DNA of 64,000 nt from an uncultured Pelagibacteraceae bacterium (GTDB lineage: Bacteria > Pseudomonadota > Alphaproteobacteria > Pelagibacterales > Pelagibacteraceae): assembly GCA_902548405.1 (NCBI GenBank), contig CACCRN010000002.1:18874-82873 (forward strand). The letters are read 5' to 3'. Shown here one piece after another: positions 47,030-51,006 of the stretch (position 1 is its first letter; every line of letters begins with the position of its first letter). The notes beneath the pieces are model-generated. The model was given only the letters and a program-made list of their open reading frames with translations, was not told where the DNA came from and searched no databases. A program made the translations under genes and the position numbers.

Positions 47030-47410
47030 ATGAAAGTTTATTTTAATAACTCTTGCAAAATCTGTAGATCAGAAATCAATATGTATAAAAAAGAAAATAT
47101 TAAAGATATTGATTGGATAGATATTACCGATAACAGAGATGCAGAAAAAGAAACGTCCAAAAATGACAAAGAGCTTTTAAGAAGATTGCACATTAAAGAA
47201 AATGACCGGGTAATTGAAGGTGCGGAAGCTTTTCTATATGTCTGGAGGAGAATACCAAAATATAAATTCTTATATAATTTTTTTAAACTTCCTATCATTT
47301 TTACTATTTTTAAGTATGGATATGAAATAGTTGCGTATTTTTTATATTTGAAAAATAAAAAACAATTAAAAAAATTAATTAAGAAAAAATATCAAAATTT
47401 GACTCAATAA
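47030..47410 (+). CDS. DCC family thiol-disulfide oxidoreductase (DUF393-like)
   Basis: VYFNNSCKICRSEINMYKKEN (CxxC); AFLYVWRRIPKYKFLYNFFKLP. Confidence 0.82.
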   Translation: MKVYFNNSCKICRSEINMYKKENIKDIDWIDITDNRDAEKETSKNDKELLRRLHIKENDRVIEGAEAFLYVWRRIPKYKFLYNFFKLPIIFTIFKYGYEIVAYFLYLKNKKQLKKLIKKKYQNLTQ

Positions 47411-47668
47411 AGACATTGAGAGAATAAACATAACTAAAACTACAGAATACATAAGAGTAATAATTTTATTTCTTTTTCTTCTTAGTCTTACAAAATTTTT
47501 ATCATCTAAATCTGATATGTCCCTTTCTCCATCAACTTCATAATCATAACTCCATCTCCAAGTTGATTGTCCTAGCCTTTCATCTTGACTATTAAAATAT
47601 CTTATCCAAGCAAGAATATAACTTAACAGAGCATATAAAATCGCCATCGCAATTATTCCGTAAAACAT
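47375..47668 (-). CDS. Small membrane protein of unknown function (two TM segments)
   Basis: ORF with N- and C-terminal hydrophobic helices flanking a charged core; overlaps the 3' end of the DCC gene by 36 bp. Confidence 0.6.
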   Translation of the reverse strand: MFYGIIAMAILYALLSYILAWIRYFNSQDERLGQSTWRWSYDYEVDGERDISDLDDKNFVRLRRKRNKIITLMYSVVLVMFILSMSLLSQILIFFLN

Positions 47669-47698: not shown

Positions 47699-48901
47699 TT
47701 AATTGTTATTTTTGGCTCTTTTTCTTGCAATTAATTGAGTTAGAGAATCCACCATCGTGTCTGAAGCTTTGAATATTTCATTATTTTTAAATTCGTGAGA
47801 GATGTTTTTTTCAGGATTAGTTTTATCTTCAATAACTATACCTTCATCAGGAGAATTATTTTTAATATAAATTAATAATAACCATTCCTCATCAGGAGCC
47901 TCGTCCCATTTAACAAATATCTCTCCTGTTTCAAATCTTCTATCAATACATCGAAAAATAGACATGTGTCTTGTGATGTGTCTTTTATTTAATTGGAAAA
48001 CTAAACTACTGGCACTCCTATAAAAGCTTTCAAGAGCAAATTCAATTTTTTGTCTTGCTAATGTAAATTCTTTTTCTTTCCTTAATAATGTTTCCCTATC
48101 CTCATTACCTTGAATTTTAACACCTAATGCCTCTACTCTCTCTCTAATTTTTTGATCTCTTATTATTCGATATTTTTCTTTTAATTTCTCAATTCTCTGT
48201 TGAAGTCCTGCGTAATCTTCTCTCTTTTCTTTTAATGATATTTTTTCTAGTTTTTCTAATTCTTTAACTTCTCTTACTCTAAATTTTTCAATCTGCTTTT
48301 CTAATTTTAATTGTTGTAAAAATTTCTTTTGCTTTTCAGCTTGTTCAATTCTCAATAAAGCCTGTTCTTTTCGTAGGAATAATTTAATCTCTTTTGTTCT
48401 TTGTTTTTCTAATCTAATCTCTTCCTTCAATACCTGTTCATTAAGCTTTAACTTTAATTCTTGTTCCTTCTGCTTCTCTTGCTGTAAGGCTAGTTTTTCC
48501 TGTCTCTCTTGCTCTTGTTTTTCAAGTTTTATTCTTCTCTGTTCATCTTTTTTAAGAGTTTTATAATTATTGATTATTTCAGATATTTTATCAAAAAATG
48601 CCTGAATATATTTTTCTATATTGAAATTTATTTTGAATTTAAATTCAGGTTTTAGTGAATTTTGAAAATTAATTATTTTTAAAAGAAAACTTTTTTCTTT
48701 AGGTTTATTTAGAATTTTTTTTTTTATTTTTTCTTTTACTTTTGAAATATTTTTTTTTTTAGCTTTAACTTTATTTTTTTTGTTAATTTTTGGTTTTATT
48801 TTTTTTACTTTAGAAATTTTTTTAGATCTTTTTGATTTTAATTGAGATTTTTTTTTACTTTTTTTAATAGATTTATTTTGTTTTTTTTTTATTTTTTTCA
48901 T
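47699..48901 (-). CDS. Unknown protein: poly-Lys N-terminus, long coiled coil, predicted folded C-terminal domain
   Basis: N-term MKKIKKKQNKSIKKSKKKSQLKSKRSKKISKVKK..., central EQERQEKLALQQEKQKEQELKLK..., C-term FYRSASSLVFQLNKRHITRHMSIFRCIDRRFETGEIFVKWDEAPDEEWLLLIYIKNN. Confidence 0.85.
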   Translation of the reverse strand: MKKIKKKQNKSIKKSKKKSQLKSKRSKKISKVKKIKPKINKKNKVKAKKKNISKVKEKIKKKILNKPKEKSFLLKIINFQNSLKPEFKFKINFNIEKYIQAFFDKISEIINNYKTLKKDEQRRIKLEKQEQERQEKLALQQEKQKEQELKLKLNEQVLKEEIRLEKQRTKEIKLFLRKEQALLRIEQAEKQKKFLQQLKLEKQIEKFRVREVKELEKLEKISLKEKREDYAGLQQRIEKLKEKYRIIRDQKIRERVEALGVKIQGNEDRETLLRKEKEFTLARQKIEFALESFYRSASSLVFQLNKRHITRHMSIFRCIDRRFETGEIFVKWDEAPDEEWLLLIYIKNNSPDEGIVIEDKTNPEKNISHEFKNNEIFKASDTMVDSLTQLIARKRAKNNN

Positions 48902-48929: not shown

Positions 48930-50120
48930 TTATTGATAAATATAGTCTCTTGTAACTGGTGTGGAAGTATAATTTTTAGTAAGCTGAAACTGATATACAA
49001 CTTGGTCTCCCCATTTAAATGCCATTTCACAACCTGCTAAATAAAACTCCCACATTCTAAAAAAACGCTCATCAAACATGTTAATAATTTTATCTTTATT
49101 TTTTAGACAATTTTCTTTCCAATGTCTTAATGTATGAGAATAATGCATTCTTAGTACCTCAATATCAGCGACGATTAAGCCAGCTTTTTCAATTGGGGTA
49201 GTTACTTCACTTAGACTGGGTGTATAACCACCTGGAAATATATATTTTGTTATCCACGGATGGGGGTCTCTTGGGGGATTTACTGATCCAATGGTATGAA
49301 TTAACGAAACTCCATCATCTTTAAGAAGTTTTTCAACTTGTGAGAAAAACTTTTTGTAAAATTTTCTTCCCACATGTTCAAACATTCCAACACTTACAAT
49401 TCTATCAAATTTTTCATCCAGCTCCCTATAATCCATCAACTTAAATGTTAGTTGATTTTCTAAATTCAGTTCTTTAGCTTTTTGTTTGCAATATTTAAAT
49501 TGATTCTCAGATAATGTGATACCAGTTACTTCACAATTAGCTGATTTTGCAATATCAACTGCTAGAGATCCCCACCCACATCCAATATCAAGGACTTTTT
49601 GATTTGGCTTTATATTTAATTTTTTAATTATATGCTGAATTTTATTATTTTGAGCTGTCTCTAAAGTATCATTTTCATTTTTGAAATAAGCACATGAATA
49701 TTGTCTTTTGGGATCTAAAAATAAATCATAAAGATCATCTTTGATATCATAATGATGTGAAACATTCATTTTAGATTTTTTGATAAAATTAAAATTTGTT
49801 AGATATCTATATGAGCCCCTTAATCTATTAATTAAGTAACTAAAAAAGTTTAAATCTCCTCTACCAAAATTCATCAAAGACAAATCTAAAAAGTCTGTAA
49901 GACTACCGTTCTCAATAACTATTTCTCCATCGGTATAAGCTTCTCCAAAATATAGATCGGGATGAAATAAAAGTTTATAATGAAGTTTTTTGTTTAATAT
50001 TTTAACTTTTATAGGATTTTCATTCTCAGGATTTCCAATTATATAACTTTTAGAATTTGCATCGACTAGGATAAAACCATCTTTCTTAAAAACACTATTT
50101 AAGAACCTTGCTAATTGCAT
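48930..50120 (-). CDS. cfa: Cyclopropane-fatty-acyl-phospholipid synthase family methyltransferase
   Basis: SHHYDIKDDLYDLFLDPKRQYSCAYF; VLDIGCGWGSLAVDIA; GMFEHVGRKFYKKFF; YIFPGGYTPSLSE. Confidence 0.94.
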   Translation of the reverse strand: MQLARFLNSVFKKDGFILVDANSKSYIIGNPENENPIKVKILNKKLHYKLLFHPDLYFGEAYTDGEIVIENGSLTDFLDLSLMNFGRGDLNFFSYLINRLRGSYRYLTNFNFIKKSKMNVSHHYDIKDDLYDLFLDPKRQYSCAYFKNENDTLETAQNNKIQHIIKKLNIKPNQKVLDIGCGWGSLAVDIAKSANCEVTGITLSENQFKYCKQKAKELNLENQLTFKLMDYRELDEKFDRIVSVGMFEHVGRKFYKKFFSQVEKLLKDDGVSLIHTIGSVNPPRDPHPWITKYIFPGGYTPSLSEVTTPIEKAGLIVADIEVLRMHYSHTLRHWKENCLKNKDKIINMFDERFFRMWEFYLAGCEMAFKWGDQVVYQFQLTKNYTSTPVTRDYIYQ

Positions 50121-50121
50121 A

Positions 50122-51006
50122 TTAAGCTGCCATTGATGATTTAAATGAAAAATCTAATTTCTCTAAATTATTTAAAAGATCAAATTCTTCCTCTTTATTC
50201 AGAATTCTTAAAGGAGGAAGTAAATTTTCATAAATACTGTCTTTATGCTTAAAAAAGGTATGTAAACCAGAAATTAAATTATATTTTTCAAATGTCCCTC
50301 TTACATCACATAATTTGGTATTAACTTCCTGTTCTTTTCCTTCTTTAAAATCATCATATACTTTTCGAGCAAGTTTTGATGTTGCGTTACATGTTGCTGT
50401 GATTATTCCTGAGCAGCCTAATTCTAATCCCTTTAATAATTTCGATTCTGAACCTGGCATAACAAAAAAATTATCTATCTTTAAACTTTCAAAAAGATTG
50501 TACGAACTGTCCTTAACTCCAACAATTTGGTCTGGAAAATTTTTGACTAGTTTTTCAACACACTCTACACTGAATTTGTAGCCACAAAGTTTTTCAAAAT
50601 TATATAATACAATCTTAGCATTTGGAATTGACTCTATGATTTTAGAGTAAAAATTAAAAACATCTTCATCACTGTATTTATAGAATGCGGGTGGCATAAT
50701 TAAAAATTTTTCTAAGTTCAATGAAGTTGCAACTCTCATTAAATTTATTATTTCTCCTAAAGAATTTAATCCTGTACCGATAATAAAATTATCTTTATAT
50801 TTATTAGTTGATATTTTATTTAGAAGTTTAATTTTTTCAGCAACTGGTATCAGCTGTGCTTGTCCTGTACTTCCGAAAATTGCAGCTCCATGGCAACCAT
50901 TTTCTATCACCATTTCAGAGTGCTCAATTGTTTTATCGATGTTTAATGTCAAATCATCATTTAAAACAGACATTGATGCAGCATAAATACCTTTTAATAA
51001 ACTCAT
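50122..51006 (-). CDS. Dihydrodipicolinate synthase family protein
   Basis: GCHGAAIFGSTGQAQL; VLYNFEKLCGYKFS; IVGVKDSSYNLFESL; GCSGIITATCN. Confidence 0.88.
   Translation of the reverse strand: MSLLKGIYAASMSVLNDDLTLNIDKTIEHSEMVIENGCHGAAIFGSTGQAQLIPVAEKIKLLNKISTNKYKDNFIIGTGLNSLGEIINLMRVATSLNLEKFLIMPPAFYKYSDEDVFNFYSKIIESIPNAKIVLYNFEKLCGYKFSVECVEKLVKNFPDQIVGVKDSSYNLFESLKIDNFFVMPGSESKLLKGLELGCSGIITATCNATSKLARKVYDDFKEGKEQEVNTKLCDVRGTFEKYNLISGLHTFFKHKDSIYENLLPPLRILNKEEEFDLLNNLEKLDFSFKSSMAA

Follow-up and report, generated by a model that had tools for sequence, protein, structure and literature searches.

A conserved SAR11 protein with a polylysine tail, a long charged helix, and an orphan C-terminal domain: a candidate polyanion-held adaptor

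Background

The closest described systems in which a Lys-rich tail is joined to helical segments are PhaF and HbhA. PhaF, a phasin of Pseudomonas, consists of an amphipathic helix, an oligomerization segment, and a histone H1-like tail that is thought to bind DNA, and it serves as a nucleoid tether (PMC9239181). AlgP of Pseudomonas associates with polyphosphate granules (PMC9239181). HbhA of Mycobacterium tuberculosis contains a hydrophobic segment, a coiled coil, and a Lys-rich tail that is required for DNA binding, and it has been reported to be nucleoid-associated (PMC10665949). For P. ubique HTCC1062, a 2008 COILS survey gives three proteins with >100 coiled-coil residues and two "rod proteins" of unknown function; in that survey a rod protein is defined as having >80 residues of coiled coil and no known domain (PMC2680258).

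SAR11 bacteria rank among the most abundant cells on Earth. The organization of their tiny cytoplasm is poorly known. Here we describe a SAR11 protein, referred to below as the rod protein, whose near-universal presence in one family, unmatched fold, and selected polycation tail make it a concrete target for study. Free-text literature searches on lysine-rich or coiled-coil proteins in SAR11 or Pelagibacter returned no paper on it.

The gene and its modules

The gene (P0001) lies in a 64,000-nucleotide stretch of DNA from an uncultured Pelagibacteraceae bacterium (the window), whose genome contains one copy. A sequence-only reading had placed it at 47699-48901; these coordinates are exact, and the minus-strand open reading frame (ORF) encodes 400 aa matching the sequence quoted there. 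That reading was silent on strand, which is minus. A plus-strand reading of the interval, which contains 35 stops, is ruled out. The tail cannot be avoided by choosing another ATG start, since the next in-frame ATG occurs only at residue 313. The features are as follows.

47699..48901, minus strand: whole gene P0001, 400 aa plus stop; ortholog in 121/147 Pelagibacteraceae genomes
48695..48901, minus strand: disordered poly-Lys tail, residues 1-69, net charge about +35; pLDDT about 43-54; charge kept, sequence drifting
48620..48694, minus strand: linker with a short helix (72-80), residues 70-94; from structure prediction
48563..48619, minus strand: amphipathic helix forming the first turns of the rod, residues 95-113; muH 0.72, periodicity p = 0.014
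48125..48616, minus strand: rod, one unbroken charged helix, residues 96-259 (164 aa); from structure prediction and periodicity tests
48098..48124, minus strand: helix-breaking loop, residues 260-268; from structure prediction
47702..48097, minus strand: conserved C-terminal domain (helix, five strands, helix), residues 269-400; from alignment and structure prediction

Thus, the protein does have the modular plan that led to its earlier description as tripartite, but there are four modules (tail, amphipathic helix, rod, and head) rather than three. Comparison of homologs indicates that this order is common to full-length members from many genera.

Distribution and gene neighborhood

When the C-terminal 129 aa are used as the query, matches are found in 121 of 147 Pelagibacteraceae genomes, including 50 of the 53 good ones. 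They cover 12 of 14 genera, always with a single copy per genome except for one split match. Two good genomes of the same genus, G127 and G143, have no match, perhaps owing to gaps in their assemblies. At the level of the order, 184 of 247 genomes match; all of the matches listed come from Pelagibacteraceae, and the second-family genomes that are listed have none. In this sister family the genes that flank the rod gene are scattered, and a search of one near-complete genome found no long charged rod. A class-level search of about 380 other alphaproteobacteria yields no homolog, the matches outside the family being chance ones (E >= 0.009), and a search of viral contigs yields none either. Two of the class-level matches were inspected; one is a UDP-GlcNAc epimerase-like gene and the other encodes an unrelated secreted protein, and neither is homologous. 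The rod protein is a near-universal, single-copy, Pelagibacteraceae-specific orphan SAR11 core family.

Three genes flank the rod gene in the window.

48930..50120, minus strand: CMAS-family (cyclopropane fatty acid synthase-like) gene, upstream neighbor; Pfam CMAS, 2.5e-97
50122..51006, minus strand: DHDPS-family gene, two upstream; from profile search and synteny
47375..47668, minus strand: 97-aa hydrophobic protein, downstream; only among close relatives, with no Pfam family above cut-off

In most genera the DHDPS-family, CMAS-family, and rod genes lie head to tail. In other genera the rod gene stays and its neighbors are, by reading of the sequence, a putative HpaI-type aldolase, a DsbA-like protein, or others. 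Because they are exchangeable in this way, the neighbors are weak evidence of function. No DNA-binding gene is found among the neighbors in synteny across genera.

The polylysine tail

The poly-Lys N-terminus noted from the sequence is real and lies far above background: it reaches net +35 in 70 aa, compared with +17 for the runner-up among the 63 ORFs of the window. In G003, a complete genome of the same genus that served as the background proteome, the tail of the ortholog (+40) ranks first of 1236 ORFs for the most basic 70-aa segment. Within the genus, the tail has 48% identity and 30% gap cells, while the mean pairwise identity of the C-terminal domain is 93%. The composition of the tail is nevertheless maintained, with K+R averaging 54% and D+E 0.7%. 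Exchanges of K with R outnumber those of K with E by 7.3:1 in the tail, compared with 1.7:1 in the initial portion of the rod, both kinds of exchange being single transitions. Since the charge stays as the sequence drifts, and K-R exchanges exceed K-E exchanges, it is the charge of the tail that is under selection and not its sequence. This conservation of charge also makes it plausible that the tail binds a polyanion. In one homolog (L116:3567-5120) the tail is extended by several near-identical repeats of ~35 aa (KTKTKKKTLPKKKKIKVSKLKKTKPIRSKKNTKSV).

The tail could instead be a by-product of A-rich codon drift, in which case what matters would be the head and the conserved helix alone. The genome is AT-rich, and 89% of the Lys codons in the tail are AAA, a share close to that elsewhere in the protein. 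However, acidic residues hardly occur even though a single transition would produce them, K and R replace each other, and the tail is present in every full-length homolog inspected, across many genera. We therefore regard drift as a most improbable source of the tail.

Polylysine tails on other SAR11 proteins

When the ORFs of G003 are ranked by their most basic segment, the next places go to tails at the N-terminus of an aldehyde dehydrogenase, of an acetyl-CoA synthetase, and of a CarD regulator. Consequently, the comparison with a histone tail made in the sequence-only reading holds for composition but is not specific. These tails also indicate that poly-Lys extension is a recurrent SAR11 addition. 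The aldehyde dehydrogenase (loci L288-L290; G003:C1:877158-878897 and two other same-genus genomes) carries an N-terminal poly-Lys tail of 50-65 residues, which precedes the start used in other genera; those genera lack the tail. The acetyl-CoA synthetase (G003:C1:39805-41892; loci L158-L159) has an N-terminal poly-Lys tail of about 50 aa, and ORF lengths, the only measure used here, suggest that several SAR11 genera share this extension, whereas genera g5 and g12 and the second family lack it. CarD-like regulators with Lys-rich N-terminal extensions are found in both families of the order (G003:C1:141252-142115 and G147:C1:268203-269027). In the sister-family genome G147, the CarD-like gene adjoins one encoding an 85-aa histone H1-like protein (C1:269064-269321) with KKAAP/KRKPA repeats and a charge of +46 in 70 aa.

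These tails bear on what the tail of the rod protein might hold. It may dock on a polyanion other than DNA, making this a polyphosphate-, RNA-, or ribosome-associated protein like AlgP of Pseudomonas. The presence of poly-Lys tails on metabolic enzymes of the same genus suggests a shared docking site, which could be something other than DNA, and AlgP provides a precedent (PMC9239181). However, neither profile searches nor synteny reveal a domain or neighbor related to RNA binding, ribosomes, or polyphosphate, and we judge this alternative unlikely. A broader and more speculative idea, to which we give little weight, is that SAR11 might use N-terminal poly-Lys tails as a common docking tag. The tag would bring structural proteins, CarD, and enzymes of central metabolism together on one polyanionic surface, which the rod protein, as the sole tailed protein retained by almost all Pelagibacteraceae, would organize. 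A shared docking function would be directly testable, because the same kind of tail occurs on unrelated enzymes.

The amphipathic helix and the rod

An amphipathic helix that the sequence-only reading missed follows the tail at about residues 94-113. Its muH, up to 0.72, exceeds that of all 500 shuffles, and in homologs it is usually the most amphipathic segment; its net charge is about -1 and variable. The only significantly periodic segment of the protein is residues 93-116 (p = 0.014).

The long helix that had been described as ~200 residues of heptad-like coiled coil is indeed predicted, although it spans 164 aa (96-259), and the heptads do not hold up: across residues 113-268 the hydrophobic periodicity of 3.5 is absent and no other period is significant. 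Salt bridges from i to i+4 are not enriched in the rod either (16 observed versus 20 expected from shuffles). Because of these results, the term "coiled coil" is unproven for this rod. The idea of a single alpha-helix was rejected on the same salt-bridge count. At 0.15 nm per residue, the rod would be about 25 nm long; some genera have a far shorter one. G003 also encodes two further long charged rods with basic N-termini, C1:799708-800805 (365 aa) and C1:934641-935378 (245 aa), which lack the C-terminal domain of the rod protein. Of the three long charged rods in this genome, that of the rod protein is the shortest, and the other two are more likely to form filaments.

SAR11 cells are curved rods. 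The protein could act as a peripheral scaffold of the inner membrane, with the tail on acidic phospholipid, the amphipathic helix inserted, and the rod and head projecting into the cytoplasm, in the manner of intermediate-filament-like or curvature proteins. The succession of a polybasic stretch and an amphipathic helix fits such a scaffold, as does the lipid-modifying CMAS-family gene that adjoins the rod gene in most genera; the two P. ubique rod proteins of unknown function given in the 2008 COILS survey also agree with it (PMC2680258). However, the amphipathic helix has a slightly negative and variable charge, several genera keep the rod gene without a CMAS-family neighbor, heptads are not significant, the much shortened rod of some genera fits a filament poorly, and two other SAR11 rods are longer. 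A membrane scaffold is thus possible but doubtful.

The C-terminal head

AlphaFold2 predicts that residues 269-400 form a helix, five strands, and a helix (alpha-beta5-alpha) with high confidence (pLDDT 90.3, pTM 0.82), which bears out the description of this part as a compact domain. In an alignment of 18 diverse members, L21, R26, F108, and D112 are invariant, and N36, K37, D51, E55, E89, K91, and D116 are nearly so (numbering of the aligned fragment). In alignment A3, the last residues are KKAS or KAS in many homologs from other genera and NNN or similar in close relatives of the window protein.

The sequence-only reading recognized no family for this domain. Searches by profile and fold agree, giving no confident match to a characterized family. 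The head matches nothing in Pfam, NCBIfam, PHROG, or PDB sequences; no enzyme, metal-binding, or nucleotide-binding family scores above cut-off in Pfam and NCBIfam profile searches; and Foldseek gives nothing at E <= 0.001. The best PDB fold match is frataxin (E 0.07, TM about 0.41, 13% identity), and uncharacterized phage proteins appear from E 0.02, which is not significant. Below threshold are TIGR03847 (E 0.094, 12.4 bits versus a curated cut-off of 117) and DUF3090, matched by 2 of 18 members with E no better than 0.022; judged from these profile scores, the two weak matches may be one lead. With an orphan C-terminal domain that has no Pfam, NCBIfam, PDB, PHROG, or significant fold match, the suggestion of an undescribed architecture stands.

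A polyanion-held adaptor

The reading that we prefer, although tentatively, is that the rod protein is a soluble, elongated SAR11 adaptor anchored to a polyanion, for which nucleoid DNA is the likeliest candidate. The disordered Lys tail would provide a charge-based hold on the polyanion. The amphipathic helix and the long charged helix would either oligomerize or keep the two ends of the protein about 25 nm apart, and the alpha-beta5-alpha head, presumably a binding rather than a catalytic domain, would contact a protein partner or itself. Near-universal orthologs, the shared module order, the charge-selected tail, the folded head, and the lack of a match to an enzyme family favor an adaptor. 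DNA is favored as the partner of the tail because of the precedents of PhaF and HbhA, an argument by analogy. Similar tails, however, are found on enzymes whose presence on DNA would have no evident purpose; given those on aldehyde dehydrogenase and acetyl-CoA synthetase, the target may instead be polyphosphate, RNA, ribosomes, or membrane. The lack of DNA-binding neighbors and of a significant heptad signal that would back oligomerization also counts against the adaptor.

Comparison with known systems

Core histones and HU differ from the rod protein, which has no Pfam match to either and a head whose predicted fold is unlike theirs. The head resembles frataxin in its order of helix, strands, and helix, but the fold E value is 0.07, there is no Pfam match, and helix 1 of the head (RQKIEFALESFYRSASSLVFQLNKRH) is not acidic and forms no acidic ridge. 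The likeness to DUF3090 and TIGR03847 is a weak profile likeness that comes from two libraries and lies far below their cut-offs.

In TolA a long charged helix precedes a C-terminal globular domain. The rod protein has the same succession, but its N-terminus is poly-Lys rather than a transmembrane anchor, and there is neither a Pfam TolA match nor an adjacent tol gene. Crescentin and FilP share with it an end domain, a long helical rod, and another end domain (PMC2680258). Here, however, the heptads are not significant, and the rod measures 164 aa and is far shorter in some genera; set beside the intermediate-filament-like criterion of >80 coiled-coil residues, the rod protein has a predicted continuous helix of 164 aa that lacks heptad periodicity.

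There are also likenesses in design to PhaF and HbhA. Like PhaF, the rod protein combines an amphipathic helix, a helical segment, and a disordered Lys-rich tail (net +35 in 70 aa, low pLDDT). However, the tail of PhaF is C-terminal and contains KPAA repeats, whereas the rod protein carries its tail at the N-terminus and without such repeats; PhaF resides on PHA granules and has no alpha-beta5-alpha head, and the rod protein has no Pfam phasin match (E <= 1). With HbhA it shares a hydrophobic segment, a long helix, and a Lys-rich tail, but the HbhA tail is C-terminal with AKKA motifs, HbhA has no folded head, and no family match joins the two. Thus, the rod protein is built like PhaF and HbhA, with its modules in another order, but is unrelated to both.
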